Part shown: positions 14,495-23,953 of the stretch, piece by piece | How positions within the stretch are numbered: the stretch's first letter is position 1 | Layout: every line of letters begins with the position of its first letter | Virus record (IMG/VR): IMGVR_UViG_3300007640_000227 | Coordinates: 1 to 24,510 of that record | Length of the DNA stretch: 24,510 nucleotides | Source of the DNA: a virus | Reading direction: 5' to 3' (one strand) | Made by a program: the position numbers and the translations under genes | Notes under the pieces: generated by a model | What the model saw: the letters and a program-made list of their open reading frames with translations, nothing else | Told to the model about the DNA's origin: nothing | The model's database searches: none

Positions 14495-14716
14495 ATGAAA
14501 CTTCAACCCATTGAAAATGTAGACGGTTTTCAAAAAGATGAAAACAATGGTGCTGTTCTTTCAGTGGACAATAGAGCATTGTACGCATATAAGGCAAAGA
14601 AAAGCAAACAACATGAAATTCTGAACGATATCAATGATATCAAGCAAGATTTAAAAGAGCTTAAAGAAATTTTAAATCATGTTATTTCTTCAAATGCTAA
14701 CGTACAAAAATTATAA
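14495..14716 (+). CDS. Small coiled-coil protein, 73 residues, unknown function
   Basis: I do not recognise a named family. The first half (residues 1-35) is mixed, with NGAVLSVDNRALYAYKAKK. The second half (about 38-65) is a charged amphipathic helix with heptad-like Ile/Leu spacing (ILNDINDIKQDLKELKEIL), probably a short coiled coil that oligomerises. There is no membrane segment. AAGG at 14482-14485 is a weak ribosome binding site, 9 bases before the ATG. It lies between the giant DUF4815 protein and the first fibre and is flanked by two late-promoter octamers, so a minor structural or assembly role is likely. The stop codon sits inside the following octamer. Confidence 0.8.
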   Translation: MKLQPIENVDGFQKDENNGAVLSVDNRALYAYKAKKSKQHEILNDINDIKQDLKELKEILNHVISSNANVQKL

Positions 14717-14719
14717 ATA
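14712..14719 (+). promoter_or_regulatory. T4-type late promoter octamer TATAAATA before the first fibre gene
   Basis: Perfect octamer overlapping the stop codon of the 73-residue gene. A start near 14725 would give a leader of about 64 bases ending in a strong AGGAG ribosome binding site (14777-14781) before the ATG at 14789. This is the longest leader in the window and suits a separately transcribed fibre cluster. Confidence 0.72.
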
Positions 14720-20006: not shown

Positions 20007-20876
20007 ATGACACAAATTGCTAACTTAGTATCAAGCGATACATTTGCAACAAGACGCAACAGCATTAACGTTGGTTTCGTCAAAATTGCAAACCTCGAAT
20101 CAGAAGTTTCCACTTTAGCAAGTGGTTCTTCTAATACATTCACAACAACTGTTGAAGCACAGAATATTATTCCTGCTGCTGATGATACATATAGTCTTGG
20201 TACTCCATCTCTCGCATGGAAAGATGTATATGTTGGTCCTGGGTCATTATATGTCAACGGGCAAAAAGTTCTTGAAGACGATTCTGGTACAATCACATTC
20301 ACTGCTGATTCTGACCAGTCTCTTACAATTAAAACATTAGGTAGTGGTGAAACAACTGTTCAATCAGTTGCTGGTGTTAACTTGACTGCTACAGAAAGTG
20401 GTGATATTGCTCTTACCACATCTTCAGGTAATATTGAACTCAAGGGTACAGTTCAACTTCTCAGTGGTAAGCGCATCACTGATAGTGCTGGTACTAAGAT
20501 TGAGTTCGGTGATGACCTTGACATGAACAGTAATAAAATTACTGAACTTGGTACACCATCTGCTAACGCTGATGCTGCTACGAAGTTATATGTTGATACA
20601 TCAATTGCTGATCTTGCCGACTCTGCTCCAACTACTTTAGATACACTAAATGAGTTGGCTGCTGCTCTTGGTGATGATGCAAACTTCAGCACAACTGTTA
20701 CAAATAGTATTGCGTCCAAACTGACTTCTGCTAACGTTGCAGTTACAGTTGGTGCAAGTTCAATTACAACAACTCAAGATGATGTTGCATTGAATGACGA
20801 AGCACTTGTGAATCCAGCAGGTTTCCTTACATTTAATCTCGGTGGAAGTACATATAAACTACCTTACTTCTCATAA
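20007..20876 (+). CDS. Short tail fibre protein, 289 residues
   Basis: The N terminus (MTQIANLVSSDTFATRRNSI, residues 1-20) parallels that of the fibre at 14789. The next part (48-75) has the NIIPAADDTYSLGTPSLAWK pattern common in phage fibre shafts. A Gly/Thr/Ser-rich beta region follows (100-150), with DIALTTSSGNIELKG. Residues 170-197 (LDMNSNKITELGTP, then DAATKLYVD) form the familiar fibre motif, followed by the helix ADSAPTTLDTLNELAAALGD (204-223). The end is strand-rich. AGGGG at 19994-19998 is the ribosome binding site, overlapping the upstream stop. It closes the fibre cluster and is followed by the hairpin before gp13. The trimeric fibre role is well supported by pattern; the ligand is unknown. 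Confidence 0.83.
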   Translation: MTQIANLVSSDTFATRRNSINVGFVKIANLESEVSTLASGSSNTFTTTVEAQNIIPAADDTYSLGTPSLAWKDVYVGPGSLYVNGQKVLEDDSGTITFTADSDQSLTIKTLGSGETTVQSVAGVNLTATESGDIALTTSSGNIELKGTVQLLSGKRITDSAGTKIEFGDDLDMNSNKITELGTPSANADAATKLYVDTSIADLADSAPTTLDTLNELAAALGDDANFSTTVTNSIASKLTSANVAVTVGASSITTTQDDVALNDEALVNPAGFLTFNLGGSTYKLPYFS

Positions 20877-20913
20877 TAATACCCCTGCTCCCCAGTAGAT
20901 AACTCCAGTTGTT

Positions 20914-20921
20914 TATAAATA
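20914..20921 (+). promoter_or_regulatory. T4-type late promoter octamer TATAAATA inside the hairpin, driving gp13
   Basis: Perfect octamer in the upstream arm and loop of the hairpin. With T4 spacing the transcript would start near 20927. It would then lack the CTCC arm but keep the GGAG ribosome binding site, with a leader of about 19 bases to the gp13 ATG. Confidence 0.75.
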
Positions 20922-20934
20922 GATATAAATGACT

Positions 20935-20938
20935 GGAG
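20935..20938 (+). promoter_or_regulatory. gp13 ribosome binding site GGAG, sequestered in the hairpin
   Basis: GGAG lies 7 bases before the ATG at 20946 and is the only good Shine-Dalgarno match for gp13. In a read-through transcript it pairs fully with CTCC at 20903-20906. Confidence 0.75.
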
Positions 20939-20945
20939 TTTTTCT

Positions 20946-21689
20946 ATGGCTGTTCCAAACTCACGACAAACATTTAAAGATTACTGCCTTCGTCGGCTTG
21001 GTTATCCCGTCATCGACATTAACGTGGACGATGAACAGGTTGACGACCGTATAGACGAAGCATTGAAATACTATCAGGATTACCACTTTGATGGGACTGA
21101 ACGTATTTTGCATAAACATATTGTAACTGCTACTGATAAAGCCAATGGCTACATCACGATTCCAGAGTCGATCATAGGAATCAATAATATCTTACCAATC
21201 GGTCAAGCGTTACAATCTTCTAATCTGTTCAGCATTCGCTATCAGATTCACTTGAACGACCTCTTTGATATTTCTGCAAGTTCGTATGTTCCATATACAA
21301 TGGCAATGACACACATACGTATGCTTGAAGAAATCTTTGTTGGTCTCAAACCTATTCGTTATAATCGCCACGTCAACAAACTTCACATTGATATGGATTG
21401 GACAGATGATATTCTTACTGGAGAATATGTAATTGTTGATGCATATCAGATCACAGATCCAGATACATATGGTGATGTGTGGGGAGACCGTTGGCTTTCA
21501 CGATATGCAACTGCATTGATTAAACGTCAATGGGGAAGCAATCTTACTAAATTTGAAGGTGTACAACTCCCTGGTGGTTTGACGTTCAATGGTGCAAAGA
21601 TTTATGACGATGCTGAAGCAGAGATTCAAAAACTCGAAGAAGAAATGATAGTGAGTTACAGTCTGCCCGTCAATGACATGACAGGTTAA
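20946..21689 (+). CDS. gp13: Neck protein gp13
   Basis: The 247-residue product corresponds to T4 gp13 (309 residues), a neck (head-completion) protein that with gp14 seals the packaged head at the portal and makes the joint to the tail. The N-terminal block (FKDYCLRRLGYPVIDINVDD, then DRIDEALKYYQDYHFDGTER, residues 10-53) and the later DIDMDWTD-like strand (about 147-153, HIDMDWTDD) plus DVWGDRWLSRYATALIKRQW (178-197) are characteristic of gp13 of marine T4-like phages. The start is fixed by GGAG at 20935-20938 inside a hairpin. It is the first gene of the neck and packaging block and is followed after 5 bases by gp14. Confidence 0.93.
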   Translation: MAVPNSRQTFKDYCLRRLGYPVIDINVDDEQVDDRIDEALKYYQDYHFDGTERILHKHIVTATDKANGYITIPESIIGINNILPIGQALQSSNLFSIRYQIHLNDLFDISASSYVPYTMAMTHIRMLEEIFVGLKPIRYNRHVNKLHIDMDWTDDILTGEYVIVDAYQITDPDTYGDVWGDRWLSRYATALIKRQWGSNLTKFEGVQLPGGLTFNGAKIYDDAEAEIQKLEEEMIVSYSLPVNDMTG

Positions 21690-21694
21690 AAATT

Positions 21695-22561
21695 ATGTTA
21701 AACCAATACTTCAATAACTTCAATTATGGTCGTGAACAAGACCTCGTTGAAGATTTGACAATCGAATGCCTCAAGATTTACGGATATAATGTCAAGTATA
21801 TTCCGAGCGTATTCGTGCGTGAAGATCCATTGTTTGGTGAAGATACGCTTCGTAAATTTGATGATGCTGTTGACCTTGAGATGTACATTAAGAATGTTGA
21901 AGGGTTTGAAGGCGAAGGCGATTTCTTATCGAAGTTCAATCTTGAAATACGTGACCAGATTACATTGACAGTGGCTCGTAAAAGATTCGACCAAGCAAAA
22001 TCGGAAAAACTTACTACTGAAGTTGGATACAATATTCTTACAGAAGATGCAGATACAAATGCTCCTTCTCGTCAATATCTTTCAACTGCATATGCTGGTG
22101 ATTCTATTCAACTTGAAGAAGGTGGGTTAGAGGGATATTCTATCACTACAAATCGACCAACAGAAGGCGACTTGATTTATTTTCCTCTTGTAAAAAAACT
22201 TTTTGAAATAAAGTTTGTTGAGCACGAGCAAGTATTCTATCAGACTGGTCGACTTCAGACATATGATATTCGTTGTGAGTTATTCGAATATAGTAGTGAG
22301 CAAATTGACACTGGTATATCTGATATAGATAGTATTGAAGATAACTATACTACGGACATACTCGCATATGAGATGTTGCTTGAAGATGATGAAAAACTAT
22401 TGAATGAAGATGGTGGTTCTATCATGCAAGAATATAGGATTGAAGACAATCAACCGACTGCAAACAACTCTTATTTCCAAAGCAACGATCCAATCTTTAG
22501 TCCAAGTTCTGTAATTGACTTTAGCGAAAAAAATCCTTTTGGTGAAGTGGACCGATATTAA
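21695..22561 (+). CDS. gp14: Neck protein gp14
   Basis: The 288-residue product is close to T4 gp14 (256). The N-terminal pattern YFNNFNYGREQDLVEDLTIE, then CLKIYGYNVKYIPS and REDPLFGED (residues 5-50), and FNLEIRDQITLTVARKRF (about 81-98) are typical of gp14. In T4, gp14 forms a hexameric ring with gp13 below the portal and receives the finished tail. The acidic C-terminal third (about 205-288), with EDDEKLLNEDGGSIMQEYRI, is longer than in T4 and may be flexible. AGG at 21683-21685 before the ATG is a weak ribosome binding site. The stop overlaps the gp15 start (TAATG), which suggests coupling. Confidence 0.93.
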   Translation: MLNQYFNNFNYGREQDLVEDLTIECLKIYGYNVKYIPSVFVREDPLFGEDTLRKFDDAVDLEMYIKNVEGFEGEGDFLSKFNLEIRDQITLTVARKRFDQAKSEKLTTEVGYNILTEDADTNAPSRQYLSTAYAGDSIQLEEGGLEGYSITTNRPTEGDLIYFPLVKKLFEIKFVEHEQVFYQTGRLQTYDIRCELFEYSSEQIDTGISDIDSIEDNYTTDILAYEMLLEDDEKLLNEDGGSIMQEYRIEDNQPTANNSYFQSNDPIFSPSSVIDFSEKNPFGEVDRY

Positions 22562-23394
22562 TGTTTCAACAATATTATCACGGTACAATACGGAAGTATA
22601 TAATCAGTTTTGGCAATCTTTTTAATGATATTGTTATTGCGAGATTGAACACTGCTGGCGAAAGAGTTCAGTCTATCGCAGTTCCATTAGCATATGGTCC
22701 TAAAGAAAAATTTTTGGTCCGTCTCCGTCAAGATCCAAACTTTGAACAGGCGGTAGCGATTACATTACCTCGTATGGGTTTCGAAATCACAGGTATGACA
22801 TATGCTCCGACAAGGAAACTATCATCCACTATTAAAAATGTCACTCTCAAGTCTGATGATAATGACCGTTTAAAAACACAGTATGTGCCTGTACCATATG
22901 ATATTAATATTTTATTATCAATCTTTGTATCGAATGCTGATGACGGTGCACAGATACTTGAACAGATACTTCCATACTTTCGCCCAGAGTTTACAACAAA
23001 TATTCGTTTGATTCCAGAGATGAATGTTGTTGTTGATACACCTGTTGTTCTTCAAGATATTTCAATTGAAGATACATATGAAGGCGACTTTGACACTCGC
23101 CGTGCTTTGATATATAGTCTTACCTTTAGTATGAAAGCATACATATACGGTCCAGTTGCAAATCAAGGTGTTATCAAAAGGTCTGTTACAAACTTCTTTG
23201 GGGATGTTCCTGCTGATTCAGCACAAATTGAAAGACTTACAGTAACTCCATCACAGTTTGCAAATGGCGCACCTCTTACGTCACCATCTGCAAACGCTTC
23301 GCTATCAGTTGAGACAAGTGCTATTAGTGCTAACTCCGATTATGGATTCACAACTGATATTAACACTGACACATTTAATATAGAGAATTCATAA
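22561..23394 (+). CDS. gp15: Tail completion and sheath stabiliser protein gp15
   Basis: The 277-residue product matches T4 gp15 (272). The N-terminal part has YYHGTIRKYIISFGNLFNDI, then VPLAYGPKEKFLVRL and FEQAVAITLPRMGFEITGM (residues 5-80), followed by YDINILLSIFVSNADDGAQI and RALIYSLTFSMKAYIYGP (about 180-198), a conserved gp15 block. In T4 a gp15 hexamer caps the tail tube and sheath and binds the neck gp14 ring during head-tail joining. The last 50 residues are Ser/Ala/Asn-rich and probably unstructured. It overlaps gp14 by one base and overlaps the following 45-residue gene by one base, so the block is likely translated as a coupled unit. Confidence 0.94.
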   Translation: MFQQYYHGTIRKYIISFGNLFNDIVIARLNTAGERVQSIAVPLAYGPKEKFLVRLRQDPNFEQAVAITLPRMGFEITGMTYAPTRKLSSTIKNVTLKSDDNDRLKTQYVPVPYDINILLSIFVSNADDGAQILEQILPYFRPEFTTNIRLIPEMNVVVDTPVVLQDISIEDTYEGDFDTRRALIYSLTFSMKAYIYGPVANQGVIKRSVTNFFGDVPADSAQIERLTVTPSQFANGAPLTSPSANASLSVETSAISANSDYGFTTDINTDTFNIENS

Positions 23395-23531
23395 TGGCAA
23401 AAATGGTATCAAAAGTTGAATTTAAAGTTGTTCAAAAACACAGAACAAGTATTGGCAACAGCCCACAATCTCGCCCAAAGAATAAACGCAAGAGAGCATC
23501 TTTTAAGAGGTATCGTGGACAGGGTAAATGA
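23394..23531 (+). CDS. Small strongly basic protein, 45 residues, unknown function
   Basis: The frame starts at ATG 23394, sharing its A with the gp15 stop (TAATG), and ends with TGA at 23529-23531, overlapping the gp16 ATG by four bases (ATGA). The product has 15 Lys/Arg and a single acidic residue. It includes VVQKHRTSIGNSPQSRPKNK and KRKRASFKRYRGQGK, so it should bind nucleic acid or an acidic partner. The tight overlaps on both sides, plus the compact RTSIGNSP...SRPKNK motif, argue for a real gene. I believe related small proteins occur at this place in other marine T4-like phages, but cannot check. Possible roles are in DNA packaging or head completion; neither is shown by the sequence. 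Confidence 0.8.
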   Translation: MAKMVSKVEFKVVQKHRTSIGNSPQSRPKNKRKRASFKRYRGQGK

Positions 23532-23953
23532 AGACGAATCTTGAGAAGAATATGGAAGCAATCTTTGATTTGCCCACTGACACCAAACCAATGGCAGAGG
23601 CAATAGAAGAATCTCGTGTTACTGTAATGAATGAAACGCCATCTACAGATAATGACATTGATGATGATTACAAATATGCAAGAGAGAATCTTAAAGAGAT
23701 TATTGATAGCGCACAACAATCAATCGCTGACCTTGCTTCTATTGCTTCCACTTCTGAATCACCAAGAGCATACGAAGTTTTATCTACTATGATGAAAACA
23801 ATTGTGGATGCGAATAAGGATCTGTTGGAGCTTCAAAAGAGTGTAAAGAAACTCAAAGAAGATAATAATACATCTGCACCACAGAATGTTACAAATGCAT
23901 TGTATGTTGGATCAACATCAGACCTCATGAATCTAATTAAAGATAACAAATAA
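23528..23953 (+). CDS. gp16: Terminase small subunit gp16
   Basis: The 141-residue product is a little shorter than T4 gp16 (164). The acidic N-terminal part (residues 1-48) precedes a helical core. That core holds the conserved gp16 pattern SESPRAYEVLSTMMKTIVDA (76-95) and NKDLLELQKSVKKLK (96-110), a predicted coiled coil that forms the ring oligomer in T4-like small terminases. The end carries NALYVGSTSDLMNLIK (123-138), also typical. gp16 recognises concatemeric DNA and stimulates the gp17 ATPase and nuclease to start headful packaging. The ATG overlaps the stop of the basic 45-residue gene (ATGA), so its translation is probably coupled. gp17 follows after 75 bases. Confidence 0.93.
   Translation: MKTNLEKNMEAIFDLPTDTKPMAEAIEESRVTVMNETPSTDNDIDDDYKYARENLKEIIDSAQQSIADLASIASTSESPRAYEVLSTMMKTIVDANKDLLELQKSVKKLKEDNNTSAPQNVTNALYVGSTSDLMNLIKDNK

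Follow-up and report, generated by a model that had tools for sequence, protein, structure and literature searches.

A Late Promoter Nested in a Shine-Dalgarno-Sequestering Hairpin as a Probable Insulator of the gp13 Operon in T4-like Phages

The leader of the neck gene gp13 in a T4-like phage carries a late promoter nested in a hairpin that pairs the gp13 Shine-Dalgarno (SD) sequence, and this arrangement is probably a cis-acting insulator. The device is re-made with unrelated sequences in relatives, which suggests that it shields a core assembly operon from the gene that happens to precede it. Our direct observations comprise the sequence, the structure prediction, the specificity for one gene, the covariation, the recurrence and the variable upstream neighbours. 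From these, we infer promoter use with a start at 20927, a block to translation, termination, and insulation as the selected function.

Gene Setting and Structure of the gp13 Leader

The DNA analysed (24,510 nucleotides of an IMG/VR record, hereafter the window) is a genome fragment from a T4-like phage. Its genes, all on the + strand, run in the order baseplate wedge, a 2026-aa protein, fibre-type, gp13, gp14, gp15 and terminase small subunit. The gp13 gene (neck/head-tail adaptor; 20946..21689, +) was assigned to PHROG 211 (E 3e-42) and is followed in the operon by gp14 (head closure; 21695..22561, +), a gp15-like tail sheath stabilizer (22561..23394, +) and a gp16-like terminase small subunit (23528..23953, +). 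The fibre-like gene upstream (20007..20876, +), the proposed source of read-through RNA, has its stop 69 nt 5′ of the gp13 ATG.

The hairpin consists of an upstream arm at 20901..20917, a 6-nt loop at 20918..20923 and a downstream arm at 20924..20940 (all +), with 17 consecutive pairs of which four are G-C, two are G-U and the rest are A-U. The anti-SD CTCC (20903..20906, +) in the upstream arm pairs with the gp13 SD GGAG (20935..20938, +) in the downstream arm, 7 nt 5′ of the ATG. A perfect T4-type late promoter octamer, TATAAATA (20914..20921, +), has its first half in the upstream arm and its second half in the loop, which is completed by GA. A T tract at 20939..20943 (+) could form, with the stem, a weak intrinsic terminator. 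The sequence-only reading had described this 17-bp stem with its nested octamer, buried GGAG and T tract, and every coordinate was confirmed. The fold has a z-score of -4.7, none of 200 shuffles being equally stable, and no other terminator-like stem in 19.5 kb comes close to it in length. No Rfam family scored above its gathering threshold, with only a chance sub-threshold match (20.3 bits vs 60).

The octamer occurs five times where 1.3 occurrences are expected, always on the + strand; the remaining copies, at 2427, 6773, 14486 and 14712, each lie close upstream of a gene. The T4 late promoter consensus is located at -13 to -6 (PMC1524935), which places the predicted start of the nested promoter at 20927 (+; octamer end + 6), within the downstream arm. 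As computed from this position, RNA from 20927 is without any upstream arm. The gene for the late sigma factor gp55 is not in the 24.5-kb fragment; gp55 (PHROG 234) is encoded by two larger relatives that carry the hairpin (G004 and G009).

Two further features of the stem were observed. An out-of-frame ATG (20929-20931) sits 2 nt from the 5′ end predicted for late RNA. It would start a short overlapping frame, and it is not retained in all relatives. In addition, TATAAATG at 20924-20931 in the downstream arm is a late octamer with one mismatch, from which a start would land on the SD.

Proposed Mechanism and Energetics of SD Opening

The nearest upstream copy of TATAAATA (14712..14719, +) is a possible start for a fibre transcript entering gp13. 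No second strong terminator was found between 14712 and gp13, and fibre RNA is therefore expected to enter the gene. The stop of the upstream open reading frame, at 20876, leaves 24 nt ahead of the stem; with this gap and an ordinary ribosome footprint, a ribosome terminating there should leave the stem unmelted. RNA entering from the fibre genes would fold the 17-pair hairpin immediately on synthesis, and the folded hairpin would keep 30S subunits off GGAG, leaving gp13 untranslated. Part of the incoming RNA may, in this phage, also be terminated at the T tract. A gp55-type RNA polymerase would start RNA at about 20927, and such RNA, since it is without the upstream arm, would form no hairpin, escape termination at the site and allow gp13 to be translated. 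The output of gp13, and perhaps of its operon, would then be set by its own promoter alone, whichever gene lies upstream.

The free energy required to unpair the SD, calculated with standard 37 °C models, was compared between RNA beginning 75 nt upstream of the ATG and RNA beginning at the predicted late start. The predicted cost for gp13 of the window is 13.9 kcal/mol in the read-through RNA vs 4.1 kcal/mol from 20927, a modest cost thus being retained in own-promoter RNA. The gap is kept at 10-30 °C (18.5/7.2 at 10 °C). When the upstream arm was shuffled, SD opening fell to 3.6 +/- 1.5, and the native level was reached in 0/100 cases. As positive controls from a T4-type phage, gene e and gene 49, whose leaders are known to be blocked in the long RNA (PMC3014915, PMC2988022), gave 14.3/3.5 and 7.6/1.0 by the same measure, the gene e values matching those of the window. 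The SD is thus predicted, on these models, to be paired in the long transcript and freed in RNA from the nested promoter.

Recurrence and Covariation in Relatives

Few close DNA relatives were matched among annotated phages. The relatives used here are 66 distinct gp13 leaders collected by IMG/VR searches with gp13. The two-state pattern, with an occluded long RNA and an open own-promoter RNA, was found in half of them (33/66; L054 scored by hand). Their stems fall into at least nine groups of unrelated sequence, each complementary to the SD region of its own lineage (GGAG, GAGGTG, AGGA or GGAGG). Examples are CTCCAGT/ACTGGAG, TCACCTCTGA/TCAGAGGTGA, TGCAATCTC/GAGATTGCA, CTGATACAT/ATGTATCGG, CCCTCCG/CGGAGGG, ATCTCCTT/AAGGAGAT, CTAAGG/CCTTAG, AGTCCTAG/CTAGGACT and GCCTC/GGAGGC. 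Within the group of the window, two-sided changes convert CTCCAGT/ACTGGAG to the covarying form CTCCAACC/GGTTGGAG in L046 and L048. The anti-SD of L052/L057 and L135/L142/L143 sits between the octamer and the start, not upstream of the octamer, and is still missing from the own-promoter RNA.

As the arms shift by one base among relatives, an arm-swap test replaced fixed-column alignment. Native pairing ranked first in 8 of the 15 leaders and was far above the swapped mean in most, for example in L061 (15.5 vs 3.0), L057 (13.1 vs 2.4) and L088 (12.0 vs 4.1). By this calculation, occlusion usually appears specific to the native arm pair, and swaps between unrelated lineages are usually predicted to abolish it. 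On the gp13 tree, the occluded label, which is threshold-based and leaves the intermediate leaders L026, L050, L051, L055 and L126 scored as open, needs about 11 changes (10-11 in bootstrap trees), at least seven of them on well-supported branches. Compensatory stem changes in related phages, which the earlier reading had looked to, are present, as in L046 and L048. Its refuting condition, a stem not conserved in relatives that keep the promoter, applies in part, namely to L023 and several clades.

Several other leaders contain related structures. In L138, L150 and L155, a hairpin about 30 nt 5′ of gp13, AAGCCATaaatagtATGGCTT, holds a late octamer; it does not pair the SD and lacks a U tract. 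In Caulobacter phage Cr30 (L251:2950-2988), the gp13 SD, AAGGA, is part of a small hairpin (CCTTCT/AGAAGG) extending across the stop codon of the upstream gene. There is no late octamer, and this leader looks like translational coupling rather than promoter choice. In the T4-type phage teqskov, a GC hairpin precedes the gp13 SD and no octamer is nested in it. Elsewhere in teqskov (L308:2672-2720), between divergent baseplate wedge and head completion genes, two divergent late promoters have a common inverted repeat that pairs both SDs (opening 9.5/6.6 and 5.7/2.4). This repeat is a second route of origin for SD-pairing palindromes at late promoters.

Restriction to gp13 among Late Promoters

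All exact octamers with an SD and an open reading frame downstream were scored in 12 related contigs, giving 66 leaders. Strong occlusion was found in 7 of 9 gp13 leaders (7.4-13.9) and in none of the 57 other late leaders, all of which were at or below 5.2 and close to their shuffled values; as the 12 contigs are kin, the leaders are not independent trials and the contrast is one within genomes. Shuffling just the 24 nt before the octamer overlooks arms located between octamer and start (L052, L057, L135 and L142), and extending the shuffle to the octamer-start spacer recovered L057. The promoter-choice switch proposed from the sequence alone is thus supported by energetics like those of gene e, by recurrence with compensatory changes and by restriction to gp13. 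That the hairpin recurs in front of a single structural gene, while the other late genes lack it, indicates strong selection on the dosage of the neck/packaging genes.

Upstream Neighbours and Alternative Barriers

The genes found before gp13 belong to 20 unrelated families across 61 leaders, among them fibre, fibre chaperone, aminotransferase, acetyltransferase and unknowns; gp13 itself forms one family and gp14 three clusters. Replacement of the neighbour could be followed in L016 (2915-3003), where the upstream gene differs from that of L015. The last codons of the new open reading frame supply a new CTCCAG that pairs with the old CTGGAG across a loop of about 36 nt, and occlusion is maintained (10.5/5.0). 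In L023, an acetyltransferase gene lies in front, the arm is lost and the leader is open.

Other barriers are found at the same border. A GC-rich terminator, AGGCCC..GGGCCTTTTT, lies 60-90 nt before the ATG in seven leaders, and all seven are non-occluded. One of them is L058, whose sister L054 carries the hairpin but not the terminator; this exclusion rests mostly on one clade and is subject to phylogenetic non-independence. In L069 and HTVC008M, the upstream gene is divergent and the hairpin is absent, with L075/L089 borderline. The S-PM2-type cyanophages (L392-L451) have an intrinsic terminator about 20-55 nt 5′ of the gp13 ATG, e.g., AAATCCCTACTTCCTAAATAGAAGTAGGGATTTTTT, whose loop contains the late promoter core TAAATA and whose stem pairs covary (A-T/G-C/T-A, T-A/C-G and C-G/G-C). 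Neither hairpin nor recognised substitute barrier was found in L023, L108-L112 and L149-L155, which keep the promoter, and in pelagiphage-type (Mosig-like) leaders, occlusion is mostly absent or weak. Given these clades, an insulator at the gp13 border is a tendency, not a strict rule.

The suggestion that the hairpin insulates gp13 from upstream read-through fits both the 20 upstream families and the terminators and divergent genes that substitute for it in relatives. The best-surviving alternative is a timing role like that of the T4 gene e switch, in which gp13 would be blocked on early or middle read-through and not on late RNA. The known T4 cases act on early or middle transcripts (PMC2988022, PMC3014915), and in Mosig, L088, L190 and L023 the gene before gp13 encodes an oxygenase or bilin reductase, an aminotransferase or an acetyltransferase, enzymes whose transcription could be early. 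In the window, however, all recognisable same-strand genes across the 20 kb upstream look like baseplate or fibre genes, several with late octamers, and we consider timing unlikely as the explanation, if still one of some weight. The two uses are mutually compatible: insulation of operon dosage fits best, and a timing role against early read-through may coexist with it wherever an enzyme gene lies upstream.

A broader reading, which we judge about as probable as its opposite, treats the left edge of the gp13 operon in marine T4-like phages as a site reserved for insulators. Selection would repeatedly install interchangeable devices there: the nested-promoter SD-occluding hairpin, the nested-promoter terminator, a separate terminator or a divergent neighbour. 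If so, the dosage of the neck/packaging operon would be set by its own promoter only, and the border would be the junction between this operon and freely exchanged cargo and fibre genes. This would give a simple account of how cargo can be swapped beside a core operon without disturbing it, and it predicts that same-strand gp13 borders in new relatives will tend to carry an insulator from this short list.

Occlusion, Termination and Other Explanations of the Hairpin

The earlier reading held that incoming RNA would either stop at the hairpin or carry an occluded SD. Predicted occlusion recurs in relatives, and the possible terminator is particular to the subclade of the window. The T tract is limited to the close relatives L010, L014, L015, L016 and L028, while in most relatives the SD pairing is retained and the T tract is gone (ggagttcaaa, ggagtatacac, ggagtttacc and gaggtgattt). 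The GC-rich stem and conserved U tract that mark an intrinsic terminator were thus not found across the relatives. Because the T tract is lost outside the subclade, occlusion is the conserved property; on the predicted structures, the general function would be to block translation, to which termination would be an optional extra.

The main role of the hairpin could instead be intrinsic termination of the fibre transcript, with the SD in its downstream arm as a by-product of compact packing. A T tract does follow the stem in the window and in L010, L015, L016 and L028, and the S-PM2-type cyanophages have a clear terminator at the same location with a late promoter in its loop. We nevertheless regard this as improbable and rejected it as the main function: most relatives lose the T tract and retain the SD pairing, the stem has merely four G-C pairs, and the anti-SD arm follows the SD of each lineage (GGAG, GAGGTG or AGGA).

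The site is also palindromic and overlaps a promoter, as would an operator for a dimeric repressor, and I-TevI is known to repress its own promoter in this way. An operator should be conserved in sequence, but stem sequence, length and bulges all vary, as does the loop (6 nt up to about 36 nt in L016), while the SD pairing is kept, so that an operator is very improbable and was rejected. Least credible is chance or a by-product of AT-rich promoter sequence: the inner stem pairs are AT-rich and supplied by the octamer itself, but the shuffles (0/200, 0/100 and 0/60), the 57 other late promoters of these phages without occlusion and the recurrence before one gene argue strongly against it.

Comparison with Known Systems

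No report of this gp13 leader hairpin was found in the open-access literature searched, nor was a published account of the S-PM2-type nested-promoter terminator before gp13. The S-PM2-type structure resembles that of the window in its place, in having the promoter core in the loop and in an own transcript without the upstream arm. It differs in its CCC/GGG core, long U tract and lack of an SD, and would insulate by termination, not by occlusion.

By analogy, the leader is best read as sharing the design of the switches at T4 gene e, soc and I-TevI. In the leaders of T4 gene e, soc and gene 49, as in the window, the late octamer lies in or beside the upstream arm, the SD is in the downstream arm and RNA from the gene's own promoter loses the upstream arm. 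The gene e hairpin cuts lysozyme synthesis about 100-fold (PMC3014915). The same promoter-in-hairpin sequestration of the ribosome binding site is found in the leaders of the homing endonucleases I-TevI, I-TevII, I-TevIII, segB and Aeh1 mobE (PMC2988022). These are selfish genes inserted in other genes, whereas gp13 is a core structural gene. The T4 cases concern RNA carrying early or middle genes and serve mainly timing, while in the window a neck gene, the first of the neck/packaging operon, lies behind late fibre genes. Also unlike the T4 cases, many unrelated stem sequences are found at gp13, and the stem of the window is followed by a T tract. The mechanism proposed here is one known from T4; what is different is the gene, its neighbours (late fibre genes or variable cargo) and the repeated independent construction of the device.
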